Below, piece after piece: positions 7,968 through 53,446 of a stretch of DNA of 62,963 bases; within the stretch, counting starts at the first letter, position 1; each line of letters begins with the position of its first letter. A program made the position numbers and the translations under genes. The DNA lies in contig NZ_JACGWV010000004.1 in NCBI RefSeq assembly GCF_014137995.1, positions 1-62,963 of the forward strand, read 5' to 3'. Below the pieces are notes generated by a model. It worked only from the letters and a program-made list of their open reading frames with translations, ran no database searches and had not been told where the DNA came from. The stretch comes from Promicromonospora sukumoe (GTDB taxonomy: Bacteria > Actinomycetota > Actinomycetes > Actinomycetales > Cellulomonadaceae).

Positions 7968-8062
7968 CGGACGCTGCGGGTGCGCGGTCCGTGGACCGGG
8001 GCGTCTCGACCGCCGGACGAATTCTGTCCCAGTGCTGGACAATCGCTTAGCATGGTGGCGAT

Positions 8063-8173
8063 CCCATCCAGAGCGGTCGAGAGTCCTGGCTCCGTGACAC
8101 CGCAGCAACCTGCCGACTTCCTGCCTCGTGGCCGTGGCGTGAGGACGTAAGGTGCTCACGCCAGGTTCGATGG
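8063..8173 (+). ncRNA. SAM-I riboswitch controlling metF
   Basis: The conserved core is present in order: ATCCAGAGCGGTCGAGAG, CCTGGCTCCGTGACACCG, CAGCAACC, then AAGGTGC. Stem P1 pairs CCATC (8064-8068) with GATGG (8169-8173). The 3' strand of P1 runs into GGAG (8172-8175), the likely ribosome site for ATG 8181. SAM binding would therefore directly hide the ribosome site. No separate expression platform or terminator is present. The class is assigned from the visible consensus only. Confidence 0.85.
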
Positions 8174-8180
8174 AGCAGCC

Positions 8181-32164: not shown

Positions 32165-33658
32165 CTACTTCGACCTGCCCGGCGGGACGCCGTCCTTCGT
32201 CGCGTGGCCGGGCTGGGCGGCCTTGTTCGGCTGGGCGGGCTGGGCGGTCTGCCCCAGCGGGGCGGCCTTCGTGGCCTGACCGGGCGGGACCTTGTCCTTC
32301 CTGGCGTGGCCCGGTGGGGTCCCGTCCTTCTTCGCCTGCCCCGGCGGAGTCGCCTTCTTGTCCTGGCCGGGAGGTGTCCCGTTCTTCTTGGCCTGCCCTG
32401 GAGGGACCGCCTTCTTCGCCTGCCCGGGCGGTACCCCGTCCTTTTTCGCCAGGCTGGGCGGGACACCGTCCTTCTTGGCGAGGCCCGGCGGTACCCCGTC
32501 CTTCTTCGCGAGGCCGGGCGGTACCCCGTCCTTCTTCGCGAGACCCGGCGGGGTGAGCCGCGCCGGGCTCACGTCGGTGAGCCGCGGGACGTCCGCCGGG
32601 TCCGGCAGCGGGGAGACCTGGGCGGCCTGCCGGACGGCGTGCCGGGTCTCGTCCGCGGCGGAGACCGCGACCGTCCCGGTCTCGGGGAACGGCGGCGCGG
32701 CGTCGACGCCGCCCACCACCCCGGTCGTGACGGCCGTGGTGACGAACAGGCCGCCCGCGACCGTCGCGGTCAGGCTCATCGGGTCGGTCAGCACGCTCCG
32801 GGCGGTCAGGGCAGCCCGGGCTCCGACGGTCGTGAACCAGCCGCCGGCTCCCGCTCCGCCCGCGCCACCCGCCGCGGTGGCGACCGCGCCCGTGGCGGCC
32901 GCACCCGTCGCGGCGAGCCCGCTCCCGGCGGTACCCGTCCCCGCGGCCCCCGCCGCGGCCGCCGTCGTGCCCGGGGCCGCCGCGGTGCCGAGCAGCAGGA
33001 CCGGTGCGGCGGCGCGCAGCATCCAGTAGGACTCGCGGACGTCGACGTATGCCCGCGTGCAGCCGGCGCACCCGACCATGTGGTCCTCGACCTCCTGCCG
33101 ACGGCGGGGCAGCAGGCGGTTCCGGACGAAGTCGTGCAGGGCCGCCCGGGTGGTCCGGCACGGCAGGTCGGCGGTGGTGCCGGCGTGCGTCTCGGCGAAG
33201 GTGCTCGCGAGCCGGTTCTCGGCGCGGCGCAGGCGCCGTTTGGCGGCGTAGGGGAGCACGCCGATCTCGTCGGCGATCGCGGCCACGGGGCGGGACCCGA
33301 CGTGGTGGTCCCAGAGGAGCTGCTGCTCACCCGCGGGCAGCCGTTCCATGGCCAGGTTCAGCACCTCGAGGTCGAGGGCGTGCCGGAGCGGCCCGGGCCC
33401 GACGACGCCGTCGGCGGGGCTGTCGGCGGCCTCCTCCTGCTGCTGGGCCATCCGCCGCGCCACCTCGATGGAGGCGCTGCTCCAGAAGGCGAGGGGGTCC
33501 ACGACGTCGCTCTCCTTGAGCAGCTCGACGCAGAGCAGCTCGAGACCGCAGCTCGCGGCCAGCTCCGGGTCCACACCGGGGACCCGCCGGGACACCGTGA
33601 AGACGACGGCGCGCCGGTGTGCCGCCCACCGGCTCAGGTCGGCGCTCGTGACGGTCAC
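32165..33658 (-). CDS. Sigma factor fused to zinc-finger anti-sigma, TM and PPG-AKK repeats (copy 1)
   Basis: 497 residues from GTG 33658 with GGAGGG upstream. Order: short degenerate region-2-like domain (WAAHRRAVVFTVSRRVPGVD), sigma region 4 HTH (SRPVAAIADEIGVLPYAAKR), zinc finger (HMVGCAGC), Ala/Gly-rich segment with probable TM helices, then an extracytoplasmic tail of about 13 PPG-x-AKK repeats. This matches ECF sigma groups with fused anti-sigma domains (ECF52/53 type; assignment from memory). It likely senses an envelope signal. Paralogue of the next gene. Confidence 0.82.
   Translation of the reverse strand: MTVTSADLSRWAAHRRAVVFTVSRRVPGVDPELAASCGLELLCVELLKESDVVDPLAFWSSASIEVARRMAQQQEEAADSPADGVVGPGPLRHALDLEVLNLAMERLPAGEQQLLWDHHVGSRPVAAIADEIGVLPYAAKRRLRRAENRLASTFAETHAGTTADLPCRTTRAALHDFVRNRLLPRRRQEVEDHMVGCAGCTRAYVDVRESYWMLRAAAPVLLLGTAAAPGTTAAAAGAAGTGTAGSGLAATGAAATGAVATAAGGAGGAGAGGWFTTVGARAALTARSVLTDPMSLTATVAGGLFVTTAVTTGVVGGVDAAPPFPETGTVAVSAADETRHAVRQAAQVSPLPDPADVPRLTDVSPARLTPPGLAKKDGVPPGLAKKDGVPPGLAKKDGVPPSLAKKDGVPPGQAKKAVPPGQAKKNGTPPGQDKKATPPGQAKKDGTPPGHARKDKVPPGQATKAAPLGQTAQPAQPNKAAQPGHATKDGVPPGRSK
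32170..32556 (-). repeat. Coding tandem repeats, about 30 bp per unit
   Basis: Encodes degenerate units PPGLAKKDGV, PPGQAKK, PPGHARKDK. The four units nearest 32556 are nearly identical at DNA level, and later units are shorter and more varied. The pattern indicates recent expansion by slippage in the extracellular tail of the sigma fusion. Confidence 0.85.
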
Positions 33659-33829
33659 GCGGCCCCCCTCCTGCACACGACGCGGCACCTGGTGGTACCT
33701 CGTCGCGCGTGCCCCCGGGCGTGCATGCTCGCAAAGAATGTATGCGCATGGAAGGGACCCGTGTGATGGCGGGACGATCTTGGGCTAGCGCCCAGATGAC
33801 CTGTGCGGACGCACAGCAGTGAGCGGACA

Positions 33830-33857: not shown

Positions 33858-35339
33858 TCAGTCCCCGGTCGCCGGATCTGTCTCGTCGGGCACGGTCGAG
33901 AACGTGCCGAAGAGCAGCTGCCAGATCTCGTCCAGGGTGGTCGTCGCGAGATCGATCCCGGGCAGGCCCTCGAGCCCGAGGCTGGCGAGCAGCTCGCTCA
34001 GCGCGGTCCCGACACCCGGTGTCGTCGCCGGGGGCTCCTCCGGGACCTCCGGCGGTTCCACCGGCGGCTCGGGATCGGTCGGCGGTTCCTCGGGCTGCTG
34101 AGGCTGCTCCGGTTCCTCCGGCGTGCCCGAGCCACCGCCCGGGTTCGACCCGGAGCCGGAGTCCGGGCCGGAGCCCCCGCCGGAACCGCCGGAGCCGCTG
34201 GGGGCCTCGGTGTCCGGAGCGGGCGCCGGCTCGGCCACCACGGGCGCCGCGTCGGCGGGCGTGGTCGTCCCGTCCTCCTTCGGCGTGGTGGCGGGACGCG
34301 GCTGCGGGTCGGCGGGCGGGATCGACGGCGGCTTCTCGTCCGTCGACGGATCCTCCGACGTGGACGGCGAACCACCGGCGTCGCCGCCCCCGCCACCCGC
34401 GCCGGACCCGCCGGACCCGGCTCCGCCGCCTGCCCCGGAACCGTCACCGGCGGCATCCTCGACGGCCTGGATCGGCGGGTCGCCGAGCTGGTTCACGATC
34501 AGGGCCGCGGCCCCGCTGCCGATGGCGAGCGCGGCCAGCACGCCCGCGGCGACGGCGGTCTCCTTCTTGCCGAACGAGCGCGGCTTGGCAGCGCCCGCCG
34601 CGCCCGCAGCCCCGGCAGCGGCGCCGGTGCTGAGCAGCCCGCCGGCGATGAGGTGCTGTCCCAGGTCGCGGAGCATCCAGGACACCTCGCGGACGTCGAT
34701 GAACGCGCGGGTGCACTCGGTGCAGCCGTCCATGTGGACCTCCAGGCGCCGCTGCCTGCGCGGCAGGAGGCGGCCCTTGAGGTAGTCGTGCATGGCGGCA
34801 CGGGTGGTGCGGCACTCGGGCTCGTTGACGGCCTGGGCGTGGGCGGCGGCGAACGCGCCGGCGAGGCGCTCCTCGGCCCGCCGCAGCCGCATCGTCACCG
34901 CGTGCGGGCGTACCCCGAGGTCGCCCGCGATGTCGGTGACCGCCATGTCGTGGACGTGGCGGTCGAGCAGGATCTTGCGGTCGTCGTCGGCCAGGTCGGA
35001 CAGCGCCGAGCGGAGCATGCTGACGTCCGCCTCGCGTTCGGCGTCGAGCTCGGCGCCCTGCACGGGAGGCGTGAGTCCGTCGAGGGTGTCGTCCTCGACG
35101 GGTCGGGCGCGGCCCGCCTCACGGGTCATCGAGATGGCCTCGTTGACGGCGGCCCTGCGCCAGTAGGGGGCGGGGTCGTCGATGGTGCCGCCGGTGGAGA
35201 CGATGCGGACCATCTTCTCCAGGGCTCGGCTGGTGGCCTCCTCGGCGTCGATACCGGGCACGCGGGCCGCGACGGAGCGCACCACGTTCGGCCGGTGCAC
35301 CACCCAGTCGTCGATCCGCAGGTCACCTGTGGTCGTCAC
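33858..35339 (-). CDS. Sigma factor fused to zinc-finger anti-sigma, TM and extracellular tail (copy 2)
   Basis: 493 residues from GTG 35339, at the same place as in copy 1 (GGGGAG upstream). The region-2-like start (WVVHRPNVVRSVAARVPGID), region 4 (MAVTDIAGDLGVRPHAVTMR), zinc finger (HMDGCTEC) and one TM helix (AVAAGVLAALAIGSGAAALI) align with copy 1. The extracellular part differs: a Gly/Ser- then Pro/Glu-rich stalk and a conserved-looking helical end (LLASLGLEGLPGIDLA). Two related sensors with different tails suggest different signals. Confidence 0.83.
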   Translation of the reverse strand: MTTTGDLRIDDWVVHRPNVVRSVAARVPGIDAEEATSRALEKMVRIVSTGGTIDDPAPYWRRAAVNEAISMTREAGRARPVEDDTLDGLTPPVQGAELDAEREADVSMLRSALSDLADDDRKILLDRHVHDMAVTDIAGDLGVRPHAVTMRLRRAEERLAGAFAAAHAQAVNEPECRTTRAAMHDYLKGRLLPRRQRRLEVHMDGCTECTRAFIDVREVSWMLRDLGQHLIAGGLLSTGAAAGAAGAAGAAKPRSFGKKETAVAAGVLAALAIGSGAAALIVNQLGDPPIQAVEDAAGDGSGAGGGAGSGGSGAGGGGGDAGGSPSTSEDPSTDEKPPSIPPADPQPRPATTPKEDGTTTPADAAPVVAEPAPAPDTEAPSGSGGSGGGSGPDSGSGSNPGGGSGTPEEPEQPQQPEEPPTDPEPPVEPPEVPEEPPATTPGVGTALSELLASLGLEGLPGIDLATTTLDEIWQLLFGTFSTVPDETDPATGD

Positions 35340-35501: not shown

Positions 35502-35723
35502 TCACCTCCGGGTCGTCGAGAACGTGGTCGATACGGCGTCGAGGCCCTGCGGTCCGGACGTCGCGTGGATGATCGCGAGCGCGACCTCGCACGTGGCGGC
35601 GATCAGGTCGCTCGCTCCCCAGGCGTCCGCGAGCCGGTACAGGTTGACGGCGTCGCCCTCCGCGTACGCGCGCAGGTACTGGGCGCCCAGGCGAACGAGT
35701 TCGGGGTGCTCGGTGTGTTCCAT
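35502..35723 (-). CDS. Small leaderless protein under the ECF-type promoter
   Basis: 73 residues from ATG 35723 (MEHTEHPELVRLGAQYLRAY). The ATG is exactly 8 nt after the CGTC -10 box, with no room for a ribosome site, so the mRNA should be leaderless. A GTG 33 bp upstream extends the frame but overlaps the -35. Mostly helical; family not recognised. It lies 162 bp upstream of sigma fusion 2 on the same strand and may be co-transcribed with it. Confidence 0.6.
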   Translation of the reverse strand: MEHTEHPELVRLGAQYLRAYAEGDAVNLYRLADAWGASDLIAATCEVALAIIHATSGPQGLDAVSTTFSTTRR

Positions 35724-35731
35724 GCAGCCCA

Positions 35732-35763
35732 GACGCGCGAGCCGCGCGGATGTCACAGCACTT
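35732..35763 (-). promoter_or_regulatory. ECF-type promoter, copy C
   Basis: On the - strand, AAGTGCTGTGACATC (35763-35749), 13 nt, then CGTC (35735-35732). Identical architecture to the copies at 35907 and 53149. It drives the 73-residue gene and probably sigma fusion 2. Confidence 0.75.
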
Positions 35764-35906
35764 CTGGAAATTTCTTCTGATTGTTCCGTGGCGTCCGGTT
35801 CGGGGCGGTGTGAGGGTGAAAATGAGTGCCCAGGGCAGCGTTCAGCGCGCGAGATGCGTTTTCATCCGGTAGGCCTGGGAGCCGGGCCACATGTGAATAC
35901 ATCGAA

Positions 35907-35938
35907 AAGTGCTGTGACATCCGGGTCGGGACCGCGTC
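35907..35938 (+). promoter_or_regulatory. ECF-type promoter, copy B
   Basis: AAGTGCTGTGACATC (35907-35921), 13 nt, CGTC (35935-35938). The following bases ACCGCGTCCT are identical to copy A. It points toward the leuS attenuator, and its -35 starts 144 bp from copy C, which points the other way. Confidence 0.75.
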
Positions 35939-35944
35939 CTACCT

Positions 35945-36121
35945 GTGACGCGGACGGAGTTCGGACCTCGCTGGGGGCGGGCCGAGCTACGACACGTCGG
36001 ACGGGAGCCGTGGTTCGGAGTGCGCTGGGGGCACGCCGAGCCACGGGCTCCCGTCCTTTACCCGGCCGGCCGGCCCGCGTACCGTGGCCGCATGCGCACC
36101 GCACGCTCGCTGCTTACCTAG
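35945..36121 (+). CDS. Possible leaderless small ORF reading into the leuS leader
   Basis: 58 codons from a GTG 6 nt after the CGTC box of promoter copy B, ending at the same TAG as the leucine leader peptide. It contains a tandem 18-codon repeat (FGPRWGRAE and FGVRWGHAE). Third-position GC is moderate. If real, transcripts from promoter B are translated straight into the Leu-Leu attenuator. It could also be chance open frame. Confidence 0.35.
   Translation: MTRTEFGPRWGRAELRHVGREPWFGVRWGHAEPRAPVLYPAGRPAYRGRMRTARSLLT
36057..36085 (+). promoter_or_regulatory. Possible housekeeping promoter of the leuS leader
   Basis: -35 TTTACC (36057-36062) and -10 TACCGT (36080-36085) are 17 bp apart. The expected start of transcription is at or next to ATG 36092, which would make the leader peptide leaderless. 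Confidence 0.5.
36092..36121 (+). CDS. Leucine leader peptide (MRTARSLLT)
   Basis: Nine codons with adjacent leucine codons CTG and CTT; CTT is rare in this genome. The stop TAG overlaps the first base of a stable hairpin that precedes a U-run terminator and then leuS. This is the layout of ribosome-mediated transcription attenuation. With only two leucines the response would be weak unless CTT decoding is limiting. Confidence 0.6.
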   Translation: MRTARSLLT

Positions 36122-36187
36122 CCGCACCGGATTCGCCCTCGATCGGGCACGACCGGTGCGGCCGCCCCTCCTTGCGAGGGGCTTTTT
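36121..36187 (+). terminator. Attenuator hairpins before leuS
   Basis: Hairpin 1 pairs GCCGCACCGG (36121-36130) with CCGGTGCGGC (36153-36162) and has an inner GCCC/GGGC stem. The terminator pairs GCCCCTC (36164-36170) with GAGGGGC (36176-36182), followed by five T. A ribosome stalled at the Leu codons would cover the 5' arm of hairpin 1. GGGC (36145-36148) could then pair with GCCC of the terminator; this antiterminator is short and inferred. Confidence 0.7.
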
Positions 36188-36226: not shown

Positions 36227-38230
36227 ATGAGCGAGCAGCACCCCACCCCAGGACCCACCGGCGGCGGCAACACAGAGCCCGGCCCGTTCGAGGCGGCCGA
36301 CGACGGCGCCCGGCCCCGCCGCTACCTGCTGACGATGTTCCCCTACCCCTCGGGCGACCTGCACATGGGCCACGCGGAGGTCTTCGCGATCACCGACGTC
36401 CAAGCCAGATATTGGCGCGCCAAGGGCTTCGACGTGCTGAACCCGGTCGGCTGGGACTCGTTCGGCCTGCCCGCGGAGAACGCCGCGATCCGCCGGGGCG
36501 AGCACCCGGCGGTGTTCACCGAGGCGAACATCGCGACCCAGGCGGCGTCGATCCGGCGCTACGGCGTCTCGTTCGACTGGTCGCGACGGCTGCACACCCA
36601 CGAGCCGGCGTACTACCGATGGACGCAGTGGCTGTTCGCCCGGTTGCACGAGCGGGGCCTGGCCTACCGGGCCGAGGCGGAGGTGAACTGGTGCCCGCAG
36701 GACCGGACGGTGCTGGCGAACGAGCAGGTGGTCGACGGCGCGTGCGAGCGCTGCGGGACCGCCGTCGTCGGGCGCAGCCTGACGCAGTGGTTCTTCCGGA
36801 CCACCGCCTACGCCGACCGCCTGCTGGACGACATGGCCCTGCTGGAACCGGGCTGGCCCGCGCACGTGCTGACGATGCAGCGCAACTGGATCGGCCGCTC
36901 CGAGGACCCGAACGGCGGGACCACCTACCGCCTGCACGACTGGCTGGTCTCGCGGCAGCGCTACTGGGGCGCCCCCGTCCCGGTGGTGCACTGCCCGGCG
37001 TGCGGCGAGGTGCTGGTGCCCGACGACGAGCTGCCCGTCGAGCTGCCGCACCTGGAGGGGGACCGGCTGGCGCCCGGCGACGTCTCGCCCCTGGCCGCCG
37101 CCCGGGACTGGGTGGAGACCACCTGCCCGCGCTGCGGCGGCCCGGCCGAGCGCGACACGGACACGATGGACACGTTCGTGGACTCGTCCTGGTACTTCCT
37201 GCGCTACCTGTCGCCCGGGTACGAGGACGGCCCGTTCCGTCCCGAGGACGCCGCCCGCTGGATGCCCGCCGCCCTGTACGTCGGCGGGGTCGAGCACGCG
37301 ACGATGCACCTGCTGTACGCGCGGTTCGTGACCAAGGTGCTGTACGACATGGGCCTGGTCCCGTCGCCCGAGCCGTACGCCCGCCTGCTGAACCAGGGGC
37401 AGGTGGTCAACCACGGCCGCGCGATGAGCAAGTCGCTGGGGAACGGCGTGGACCTGGCCGCCGAGCTGGACCGCCACGGCGTGGACGCCGTCCGGCTGGC
37501 GATGCTGTTCGCGGGGCCGCCGGAGGACGACGTCGACTGGGCGGACGTCTCGCCGGAGGCGATGCGCAAGTTCCTGGCCCGCGTGCTGCGGCTGACGTCC
37601 CGTGGGTCGAGCGCCTTCCGCGGGTCGAGCGTGTCGAGACCAGGGTCTCGACACGCTCGACCGGCGGACGGACCGGCGGACGGACCGGCGGACGGGCCAA
37701 CGGCGGAGTCCGACGCCCTGCGGCGGGTGGTGCACCGCACCGTGCACGACGTCGACGGCCTGGTCGAGGCCGGCCGGTTCAACGTCGCGATCGCGCGGCT
37801 GATGGAGCTGGTGGGTGTGGTGCGGCGCGCGGCGCCGTCCGACGGTGACGCGGACGACGGCGTCTCGTCCGACGGCGGCCTAGAGGCCTACCGCGAGGCC
37901 GTCGCCGCGGTCGCGGTGCTGCTCAGCCTGTTCGCCCCGTCCACCGCCCAGGACCTGTGGGAGCGCCTGGGGCGTACGACGCCGGTCGCGGCCCAGCCGT
38001 GGCCCGACGTGGACCCGGCGTACCTGGTGACCTCCGAGGTCGAGGCCGTGGTCCAGGTGGACGGCCGGCTGCGGGACCGGATCGTGGTCCTGGCGGACGT
38101 CGCGCCGGCCGACCTGGAGCGGGCGGCCCTGGCGCGGCCGGCGGTGACTCGCGCGGTGGGCGACCGGGCGGTGCGGCGGGTCGTCGTCCGCCCGCCGCAC
38201 CTGGTCAACGTGGTGCTGGACCGGGCCTGA
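36227..38230 (+). CDS. leuS: Leucyl-tRNA synthetase lacking the CP1 editing domain
   Basis: 667 residues against roughly 850-960 for standard bacterial LeuRS. HIGH motif is HMGH (46-49), KMSKS is AMSKS (399-403). Zinc-binding cysteine pairs are present (CERCG, CPACG, CPRCGG). [10 protein letters not shown] (from 217) is followed after about six residues by [15 protein letters not shown] (234-248), where about 190 residues of editing domain normally sit. It should charge tRNA-Leu without post-transfer proofreading. It is possibly a second, specialised copy. A palindrome plus tandem repeat is inserted near residues 458-497. ATG with GGAG upstream, behind an attenuator. Confidence 0.9.
37623..37662. 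repeat. Palindromic element inserted inside leuS
   Basis: 19-bp perfect arms (37623-37641 and 37644-37662; core GAGCGTGTCGAGACC) with a 2-nt loop. A partial direct copy GGGTCGAGCG lies 18 bp upstream at 37604. The insertion keeps the reading frame and encodes [19 protein letters not shown] in a linker between the catalytic and anticodon-binding parts. Confidence 0.85.
37663..37698 (+). repeat. 12-bp tandem repeat in leuS
   Basis: Three copies of a 12-bp unit (GGCGGACGGACC, the last slightly changed), directly abutting the palindrome and encoding [12 protein letters not shown]. In frame, so the protein stays intact. Confidence 0.85.
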
Positions 38231-41419: not shown

Positions 41420-41430
41420 CTAAGGTCTCC

Positions 41431-41612
41431 TGTACCGCCTGCGAGGTCAGCTGTCGGGTTCGGGTGAGGAGTGCTACCCGGCCGCACGGCTTACAAGGGG
41501 GTACCGTCCGGCTTCACCCCGAGGACGACGATCCTGCTGTCGCCCGGGAATGGGTCCCCCGCTCCTGTCTTGAACGTCTGGTCACGAACCGGTGACAGGA
41601 TTCGGCGTCCGG
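41431..41612 (-). ncRNA. ydaO-yuaA type c-di-AMP riboswitch
   Basis: On the - strand the conserved blocks appear in order: GCCGAATCCTG, GCGGGGGACCCA, CCTCGGGGTGAAGCC, GCGGCCGGGTAGCAC, CTCACCCGAACCCGACAGCT, CGCAGGCGG. It ends about 12 nt before the GTG of the NlpC/P60 gene, next to its ribosome site. Identification rests on the consensus and on the typical downstream gene. Confidence 0.88.
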
Positions 41613-41780
41613 ATCGCGACTCCACCGTGGGGGTGGAGCAGAAGTCAAAGTACACACGTTCATGGAAAAAGTCACGATCGGGTTACGCATTCCGGTCTGA
41701 CCCAACGAAGGCGCAGATTTGCGCCGTTTCGGGCGTCCGGGGTTATGACCGACATCACACATCCGCTAGCGTTCGGCCGC

Positions 41781-53148: not shown

Positions 53149-53180
53149 AAGTGCTGTGACATCTGCGGGGTCACCGCGTC
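53149..53180 (+). promoter_or_regulatory. ECF-type promoter, copy A
   Basis: AAGTGCTGTGACATC (53149-53163), 13 nt, CGTC (53177-53180), then 8 nt to ATG 53189. Same spacing as copies B and C, with 35-50 bp of overall similarity to copy B. Confidence 0.78.
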
Positions 53181-53188
53181 CTCAGTGC

Positions 53189-53446
53189 ATGACCGCGACG
53201 AAGAGCAGGACCTACGGACTGGCCTCGAACCCCTCGGAGTGGGCCGCGCACCGGCGCGCCGTCGTCTTCTCGGTGCACCGGATGTACCCCGGGGTGGACG
53301 CCGAGCGCGCCGCCACCGAGGGGCTGGGCGAGCTGTGCCGACAGATCGTGATGCGCGGCGCCGTCGACCGGCCCGCCGTCGTGTGGTGCGAGGCCGCCGT
53401 CGCGGCCGCCGCGCGCATGCGGGGCGCGAGCGGCGTCGCGGCGTGA
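53189..53446 (+). CDS. Stand-alone sigma N-terminal (region-2-like) fragment
   Basis: 85 residues from ATG 53189, exactly 8 nt after the CGTC box, so leaderless. SEWAAHRRAVVFSVHRMYPGVDAERAA aligns with the first domain of sigma fusion 1 (SRWAAHRRAVVFTVSRRVPGVDPELAA) and continues to about residue 78. There is no region 4, zinc finger or TM. It is either a decayed copy or a functional small protein that competes with, or completes, the fusion sigma factors. Confidence 0.7.
   Translation: MTATKSRTYGLASNPSEWAAHRRAVVFSVHRMYPGVDAERAATEGLGELCRQIVMRGAVDRPAVVWCEAAVAAAARMRGASGVAA

Follow-up and report, generated by a model that had tools for sequence, protein, structure and literature searches.

A compact regulon of probable ECF-type promoters around a membrane-bound sigma/anti-sigma fusion in Promicromonospora sukumoe

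The analysed window, a stretch of 62,963 nucleotides that is a whole contig (C4) of the 6.51-Mb genome of Promicromonospora sukumoe, was found to carry part of a compact and real regulon. ECF regulation is known, and the regulon is a new form of it. The explanation that best accounts for the data as a whole, with a probability of about 0.8, is that the sites are ECF-type promoters read by a sigma/anti-sigma fusion of the type of P0001 (33858..35495, minus strand) and that they form a feedback regulon. In this genome, the targets are the operon of a 73-aa gene and the fusion, a sigma2-only gene, a HAD phosphatase gene, a 101-aa gene and a structured RNA.

Occurrence of the motif

The searched pattern was AAGTGCTGTGACATC-N13-CGTC (32 bp), with the reversed pattern and dinucleotide shuffles as controls. 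Exactly three matches at up to 3 mismatches were obtained in the window, and all three were exact. Copy 1 lies at 35732..35763 on the minus strand (-35-like AAGTGCTGTGACATC at 35763-35749, GCGTC at 35736-35732, predicted +1 at 35723). Copy 2 is divergent from it, at 35907..35938 on the plus strand (predicted +1 at 35947), and copy 3 is found at 53149..53180 on the plus strand (predicted +1 at 53189). In 100 dinucleotide shuffles of the window the mean was 0.03 matches and the largest number 1. An earlier note on this DNA had reported three copies with identical spacing; the observation is confirmed and was even understated.

The same search of the genome at up to 3 mismatches gave six places, and the reversed control gave none. 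Five of the places look real, four being exact and one having a single mismatch. Two lie outside the window, at C1:1023904 before the gene of a Cof-type HAD phosphatase and at C3:723179 before the gene of a 101-aa protein. The sixth place was rejected as chance, because it carries three mismatches and lacks a start codon at +8. An ATG stands exactly 8 nt past CGTC at four of the five sites, so that a rule noted earlier for two copies proved to be wider. The exception is the site at 35907 (+), with GACGCGG 8 nt past CGTC; a GTG 6 nt past CGTC at this site is missing in several relatives. All five sites are intergenic, as the flanking ORFs were read. The note had named a random distribution of the motif, or its presence in coding DNA, as a refuting outcome; the result favours the note, since the motif is confined in 6.5 Mb to five intergenic places, which are conserved across genera. 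Among the papers listed in literature searches, none was recognised as dealing with the motif or the regulon.

Among the 13 Promicromonospora genomes, 12 carry the motif at up to one mismatch, with no control matches. The core form TGTGACNTC-N13-CGTC-N8-ATG gave 54 matches in 20 of 221 genomes of the family and none in the control, and all 54 were confined to four of the 25 genera. When a GTDB-based collection (one genome per species, the window's own genome possibly left out) was scanned with an 18-base pattern, 43 stretches were returned. Of these, 41 belong to Promicromonospora, Antribacter or Myceligenerans and the remaining two are single matches in unrelated MAGs. In the fourth genus, g10, the sites consist of TGTGACATC or TGTGACTTC, 13 nt, CGTC, 8 nt and ATG, the AAGTGC half being replaced and TGTGACNTC kept. 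There a single site precedes the homologue of the 73-aa gene, divergent from a P0001-like fusion. A scan of 200 genomes at up to two mismatches gave 21 two-mismatch matches outside g1, g3 and g14, which were taken as chance because the controls were equally many (21 overall, 19 outside these genera).

Next to the sigma operon, the two divergent sites are found again in Promicromonospora, Antribacter and Myceligenerans, not in every genome, and the target set also varies, since not every relative has every target. The genome G006 has no exact sites, and the 73-aa, sigma2-only and 101-aa genes are absent as well. It keeps a P0001-type sigma (89% over the core) and the RNA, whose promoter has a degenerate -35; the sigma therefore outlives most of the regulon. 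Such a pattern would be expected if the regulon was lost as a whole, and it is also evidence that the sigma can be maintained in the absence of the regulon. The loss of the HAD target is not specific, because the best HAD match in G006 (62%) is not surpassed in G012, which keeps other targets.

Promoter architecture

After merging of identical sites, 80 unique sites at up to 3 mismatches were available; many are orthologous and hence not independent samples, and the g10 sites, with at least 4 mismatches, are not among them. An ATG was found at 8 nt in 59 and at 9 nt in 1, GA[CG]GCG at 8 nt in 15, and another sequence in 5. Four of these last five are likely chance, and the fifth (L094, before a HAD gene in Antribacter soli) is a true exception to the ATG rule. 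The per-position table was built from 75 sites, the five others (L010, L094, L105, L151 and L156) being left out.

Since ATG stands 8 nt past CGTC in nearly all coding targets, the mRNAs look leaderless, with CGTC at -12 to -9. The predicted -35 element is AAGTGCTGTGACNTC at -40 to -26 and the predicted -10 element is GCGTC at -13 to -9, and transcription is predicted to start at the A of the ATG or at the G of the small RNA. These are the usual places of ECF elements. As in ECF (group IV) systems, a conserved bipartite promoter was found upstream of the sigma's own operon and of the targets. The spacing, the position of the ATG and the conservation support the earlier proposal of an ECF-like promoter mini-regulon with leaderless small genes. 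It is practically certain that the sites form a true regulon, and highly probable that they are promoters of the ECF type.

Another explanation would be that a separate activator binds the upstream block as its operator, that a different sigma factor uses the CGTC -10 and that the fusion is just one of the targets. The conserved block, with its -35 core TGTGAC, measures 15 nt when AAGTGC is included, a length beyond the usual reach of a single sigma4, and the loss of AAGTGC in g10, where TGTGACNTC stays, looks as if two elements had been joined. However, no dyad symmetry is visible in the block, and the 13-nt gap and the +1 are fixed in all genera with the motif. Moreover, the P0001-type sigma and the motif occur in the same four genera, and no other regulator gene was noticed at all sites in a non-systematic look. 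The activator is thus considered unlikely, and reading of the sites by a P0001-type sigma is preferred.

Target genes

The first gene of the sigma operon is a leaderless gene of 73 aa (35505..35723, minus strand; stop codon 35502-35504), with a dN/dS of 0.13. Its product is predicted to be a three-helix protein (pLDDT 89.5), and none of the seven Foldseek matches of this fold was significant. The family of the HAD target is large: in 10 genomes searched at E up to 1e-30, a relative had as many as 19 matches. No genome was seen to have more than one copy behind the motif.

Copy 3 stands before the leaderless gene of P0003 (53189..53446, plus strand), an 85-aa protein consisting of sigma region 2 only. 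Its comparison by hhalign with the sigma2 domains of two fusion types gave probabilities of 99.6% and 98.2%, in agreement with a sigma2 profile. The identity was 45% to the sigma2 of the tandem fusion described below and 40% to that of P0001. The full sigma has a YWRRAAVNEA stretch that P0003 lacks, and the WRR..NE residues of P0001 are missing in 19 of the 19 aligned rows of the family. Three matches, SigW among them, came from a search of the PDB with the family profile, and at E 0.11-0.57 they were not significant. The gene had earlier been labelled a fragment of the same sigma family. A dN/dS of 0.18, obtained for a subset of sequences chosen by the analyst (15 pairs of 6 equal-length Promicromonospora genes), indicates purifying selection and rules out a decaying fragment; the gene is a conserved and selected one for a sigma-region-2-only protein.

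It is suggested tentatively, at rather less than an even chance, that this protein acts as a decoy or modulator. It could instead be the working subunit of a two-part sigma and no mimic, as in the SigO-RsoA system of Bacillus subtilis, where sigma4 and sigma2 are split over two proteins (PMC8103513). That possibility is given little weight: P0001 keeps a sigma2 of its own, the sigma2-only family is without WRR..NE in those 19 rows, and the sites showed no obvious partner consisting of sigma4 alone.

The sigma factor that reads the motif

P0001 combines a putative sigma2-sigma4 part with a zf-HC2 anti-sigma domain, a TM segment (a hydrophobic stretch read by eye) and a Gly/Pro-rich tail. Comparison with its paralogues suggests that its true start may be the GTG at 35339. 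In Pfam, Sigma70_r4_2 was matched with 26.6 bits, just over the cut-off of 25.7, and zf-HC2 with 30.2 bits (cut-off 22.2); there was no sigma2 match. The general sigma70-ECF model TIGR02937 aligned to residues 72-212 with 39.6 bits (cut-off 42.9). Among the matches listed (25 of 33 NCBIfam rows), P0001 stayed under the cut-off of every sigma model, and the PDB contained no sequence match. Its predicted sigma activity therefore rests on Sigma70_r4_2 and the sub-threshold sigma scores.

A P0001-type sigma, defined by at least 60% identity over a 228-residue core, was found only in g1, g3, g10 and g14 of the 25 genera, and these are the four genera with the motif. In the other genera the sigma matches reached at most 53% identity and were mostly partial. 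The search covered 220 genomes of the family at E up to 1e-25, with at most 13 candidates scored per genome, and at genus level the co-occurrence amounts to few independent events. The P0001-type gene is cut at contig ends in several genomes (e.g. G002, G003, G010 and G011), and in G014 the 73-aa gene lies close to the end of its contig. All 22 P0001-type cores printed have the recognition-helix stretch VRPHA(V/A)T(M/V)RLRRAEERL. Co-occurrence and synteny thus provide a strong but circumstantial link, which makes the P0001-type sigma the likely reader of the motif. Its three close chromosomal paralogues very probably recognise the sites as well.

The earlier note had held that the fusions autoregulate. 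A motif promoter does head the sigma operon, from which we infer autoregulation; in g10 the sigma gene itself is without a motif promoter. The assignment of the sigma had to be corrected, as the best candidate is the P0001 type and not the tandem fusion. The latter (32165..33688, minus strand) is a second sigma/anti-sigma fusion, perhaps in the operon of P0001. It adjoins P0001 and its sigma2 is the closer one to the sigma2-only protein (45% vs 40%), and these points would favour it as reader, the other possibility being another sigma of the genome. Nevertheless, its recognition-helix stretch, VLPYAAKRRLRRAENRLA (given also as VLPYAAKRRLRRAENRL), is diverged, its region 2.3/2.4-like stretch is without RR..NE and has no YWRRAAVNEA, and in g10 it is a P0001-like fusion that the retained motif adjoins. 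Reading by the tandem fusion or by another sigma is accordingly judged improbable.

Three more P0001-type genes (L109, L110 and L111) are present on the chromosome, none with the motif upstream. One of these paralogues is 95.6% identical over 1.58 kb. The other two are about 88-89% identical over a core of 680 nt, with a further 82% over 146 nt close to the TM segment in one of them, and their tails gave no further blastn match at E 1e-3. A core tree of 23 tips was built from the 28 named genes, leaving out both of G009, G005_C16, G006 and G010_C2. Copies of the same genome often group in it (G007, G012, G004, the three of G001, and the own C4 with C1:1897). The own C1:1435 groups with its flank orthologue in G008, and the flanks identify some loci as orthologues in different species. 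This is read as homogenisation of the cores by gene conversion, frequent but incomplete; a recent duplication would also explain the identity of the own 95.6% pair. The contigs of many relatives end inside P0001-type genes, an effect that repeats would have.

The divergent transcript and leuS

Copy 2 is followed by a predicted structured small RNA (35947..36058, plus strand), with two hairpins here and three in most relatives having it. The hairpin plan is UCGGA-N4-GCUGGGG-N4'-GCCGA. Compared with shuffled sequences, the own copy has the better fold (z -3.1). The divergent site, GA[CG]GCG at +1 and then hairpins were found in 15 genomes; because GA[CG]GCG at +8 was itself the criterion by which these sequences were picked, the count of 15 of 15 is in part a product of selection, and no divergent site of the RNA kind lacked GA[CG]GCG when the filter was removed. 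The RNA is present in 10 of 13 Promicromonospora genomes (presence or absence being scored with G003 and G005 left out), in Antribacter gilvus and in four of four Myceligenerans genomes. G012 and Antribacter soli (G038) have neither the divergent site nor the RNA.

In 37 hairpin units found by pattern, one further row being judged spurious, the inner four positions pair 4/4 in 19, 3/4 in 17 and 2/4 in 1. The pairs change together, as in CCGC/GCGG, GUGC/GCAC, GCGC/GCGC and CUGC/GCAG. RNAalifold gave 42 pairs, 8 of them with two-sided changes, and a covariation term of -0.06; its support is only moderate because this term is near zero. The second hairpin is lost or altered in G009 and G006, and the first in G001. 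The RNA matched no Rfam family at the gathering score. The weak, mostly microRNA-like matches lay far below the gathering scores and a known family was rejected. A genome-wide repeat is also unlikely, as eight of eight zero-mismatch hairpin matches in five genomes lie at the RNA locus; one-mismatch matches elsewhere in the five genomes numbered 15, vs 5 in the reversed control. The RNA is most likely a real transcript.

Rfam families were matched at two other places in the window, a c-di-AMP riboswitch (41421-41617, minus strand; RF00379, 68 bits) and a SAM riboswitch (8061-8176, plus strand; RF00162, 46.2 bits, just over the cut-off of 44.4).

Past the RNA lies a short leuS paralogue (36227..38230, plus strand) of 667 aa, against a model length of 843, with no editing-domain match among the Pfam rows. 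The gene and its apparent own control region (36057..36187, plus strand) were judged to be outside the regulon. This region contains promoter-like boxes read by eye (TTTACC-17-TACCGT), a leader peptide MRTARSLLT (36092-36121, plus strand) whose start codon stands 7 nt past the boxes, and a terminator hairpin with a T-run (36164-36187, plus strand; by eye). The leucine-containing leader and the terminator hairpin before leuS resemble attenuation. A similar leader is found in the other Promicromonospora sequences compared and in G012, and it is altered in Antribacter gilvus. At 37600-37720, inside leuS, GTCGAG...CTCGAC was seen by eye as an inverted repeat, together with tandem units resembling GGACGGACCGGC; this stretch is perhaps an insertion in the coding frame.

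The earlier note had considered leuS as possibly controlled by the sigma factors. If the divergent promoter served leuS, the structured stretch would be the leader of the leuS mRNA and would tie leucyl-tRNA synthesis to the sigma. The leuS leader does lie downstream on the same strand in 10 Promicromonospora genomes and in Antribacter gilvus, all with the RNA, and the last hairpin has no T-run in most species, so read-through into leuS is possible. The RNA and leuS separate both ways, however. No leuS follows the RNA in four of four Myceligenerans genomes, and in G012, where both the RNA and the motif are missing, leuS is present and is preceded by promoter-like boxes, a leader peptide and a terminator of its own. 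At two translated Myceligenerans loci (L098 and L101) the next gene past the RNA is that of a convergent cation channel, and a channel-type sequence also lies past leuS in the window. Control of leuS is thus rejected as the main reading and is regarded as improbable, the G012 locus having lowered its odds further; copy 2 is taken to start the RNA.

Finally, the long near-identical blocks might suggest copies of a repeat or mobile element and not promoters, but this can be dismissed, since the flanks differ between sites of one genome, the high-information columns over the 75 sites are those of the -35, the -10 and the start, and purifying selection was seen in subsets of the sequences of three target genes.

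Proposed mechanism and comparison with known systems

A mechanism can be proposed for the feedback regulon of the P0001-type fusion. A surface signal would free the sigma part of the membrane-tethered fusion, probably by proteolysis, in line with the expectation for ECF48, ECF52 and ECF53 (PMC8999054). The freed sigma would amplify its own operon (the 73-aa gene and the fusion) and make the structured RNA from the divergent promoter. It would also lead to the free sigma2 mimic, the HAD phosphatase and the 101-aa protein, and in some relatives additionally to a free zf-HC2 domain. As a speculation, the isolated sigma2 and zinc-finger domains may compete with the tethered ones in a PhyR-like manner (PMC8103513). 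The RNA, with its repeated similar loops, may speculatively titrate a protein or a C-rich RNA. Mimics and RNA would then tune the response as feedback. The further idea of a self-referential homeostat, in which a fusion family with gene-converted cores and differing tails drives one tiny regulon of its own domains (the sigma2 mimic in most species, the free zinc-finger domain in some) and a multi-hairpin sponge RNA, is doubtful.

The regulon is complete, small and sharply defined, and its promoter and start site are predicted at single-base resolution, so that a little-studied class of bacterial sensors becomes directly testable. The analysis predicts an undescribed small RNA and suggests corrected start codons for small genes. 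It also provides an example of a sigma regulon whose genes include single domains of the regulon's own sigma. If several receptors share one promoter code and are homogenised within genomes, as they appear to be, many signals would be wired to one output in an unusual way.

In its layout P0001 resembles ECF52 SCO4117 of Streptomyces coelicolor, in which the sigma is fused to a zinc finger, a TM segment and a proline-rich extracellular tail. ECF52 is described as actinobacterial, and positive autoregulation has been proposed for it (PMC5826349). P0001 is likewise actinobacterial and has the sigma, the zinc finger, the TM segment and a Pro-containing tail. It was not filed as ECF52 because the C-terminal carbohydrate-binding domain was missing, no such domain being found among its Pfam matches up to E 0.1. 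Moreover, the SCO4117 motif is given as CSGYN-17-SRHA at 29 promoters (PMC5826349), whereas TGTGACNTC-13-CGTC stands here at five; SCO4117 is described as the only ECF52 member in S. coelicolor (PMC5826349), whereas there are several P0001-type copies per genome. ECF48 and ECF53 also have a zinc finger and a TM segment fused behind the sigma, with activation by proteolysis expected (PMC8999054). Compared by domain layout, P0001 shares with ECF48, ECF52 and ECF53 the C-terminal zinc-finger anti-sigma domain and the TM segment.

The promoters of ECF41 are described as TGTCACA-n16-CGTC, with a tiny regulon beside a C-terminally extended sigma (PMC3426412). The CGTC -10 and the 16-bp gap past the -35 core are common to both systems. 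In contrast, the -35 core is TGTGAC here, the extension is zf-HC2 and TM and not SnoaL, and the targets are leaderless and include an RNA. The SnoaL-like extension and the TGTCACA -35 of ECF41 are thus both missing in the present system.

PhyR contains a sigma-like domain whose promoter- and core-contact regions differ, according to a review (PMC8103513). A similar mimic logic is proposed for the sigma2-only protein, a candidate mimic that, unlike the response regulator PhyR, would consist of sigma2 alone and be a product of the regulon. With SigO-RsoA (PMC8103513) the present system shares a protein that has the sigma2 domain alone, and it differs in that the main sigma here has its own sigma2.
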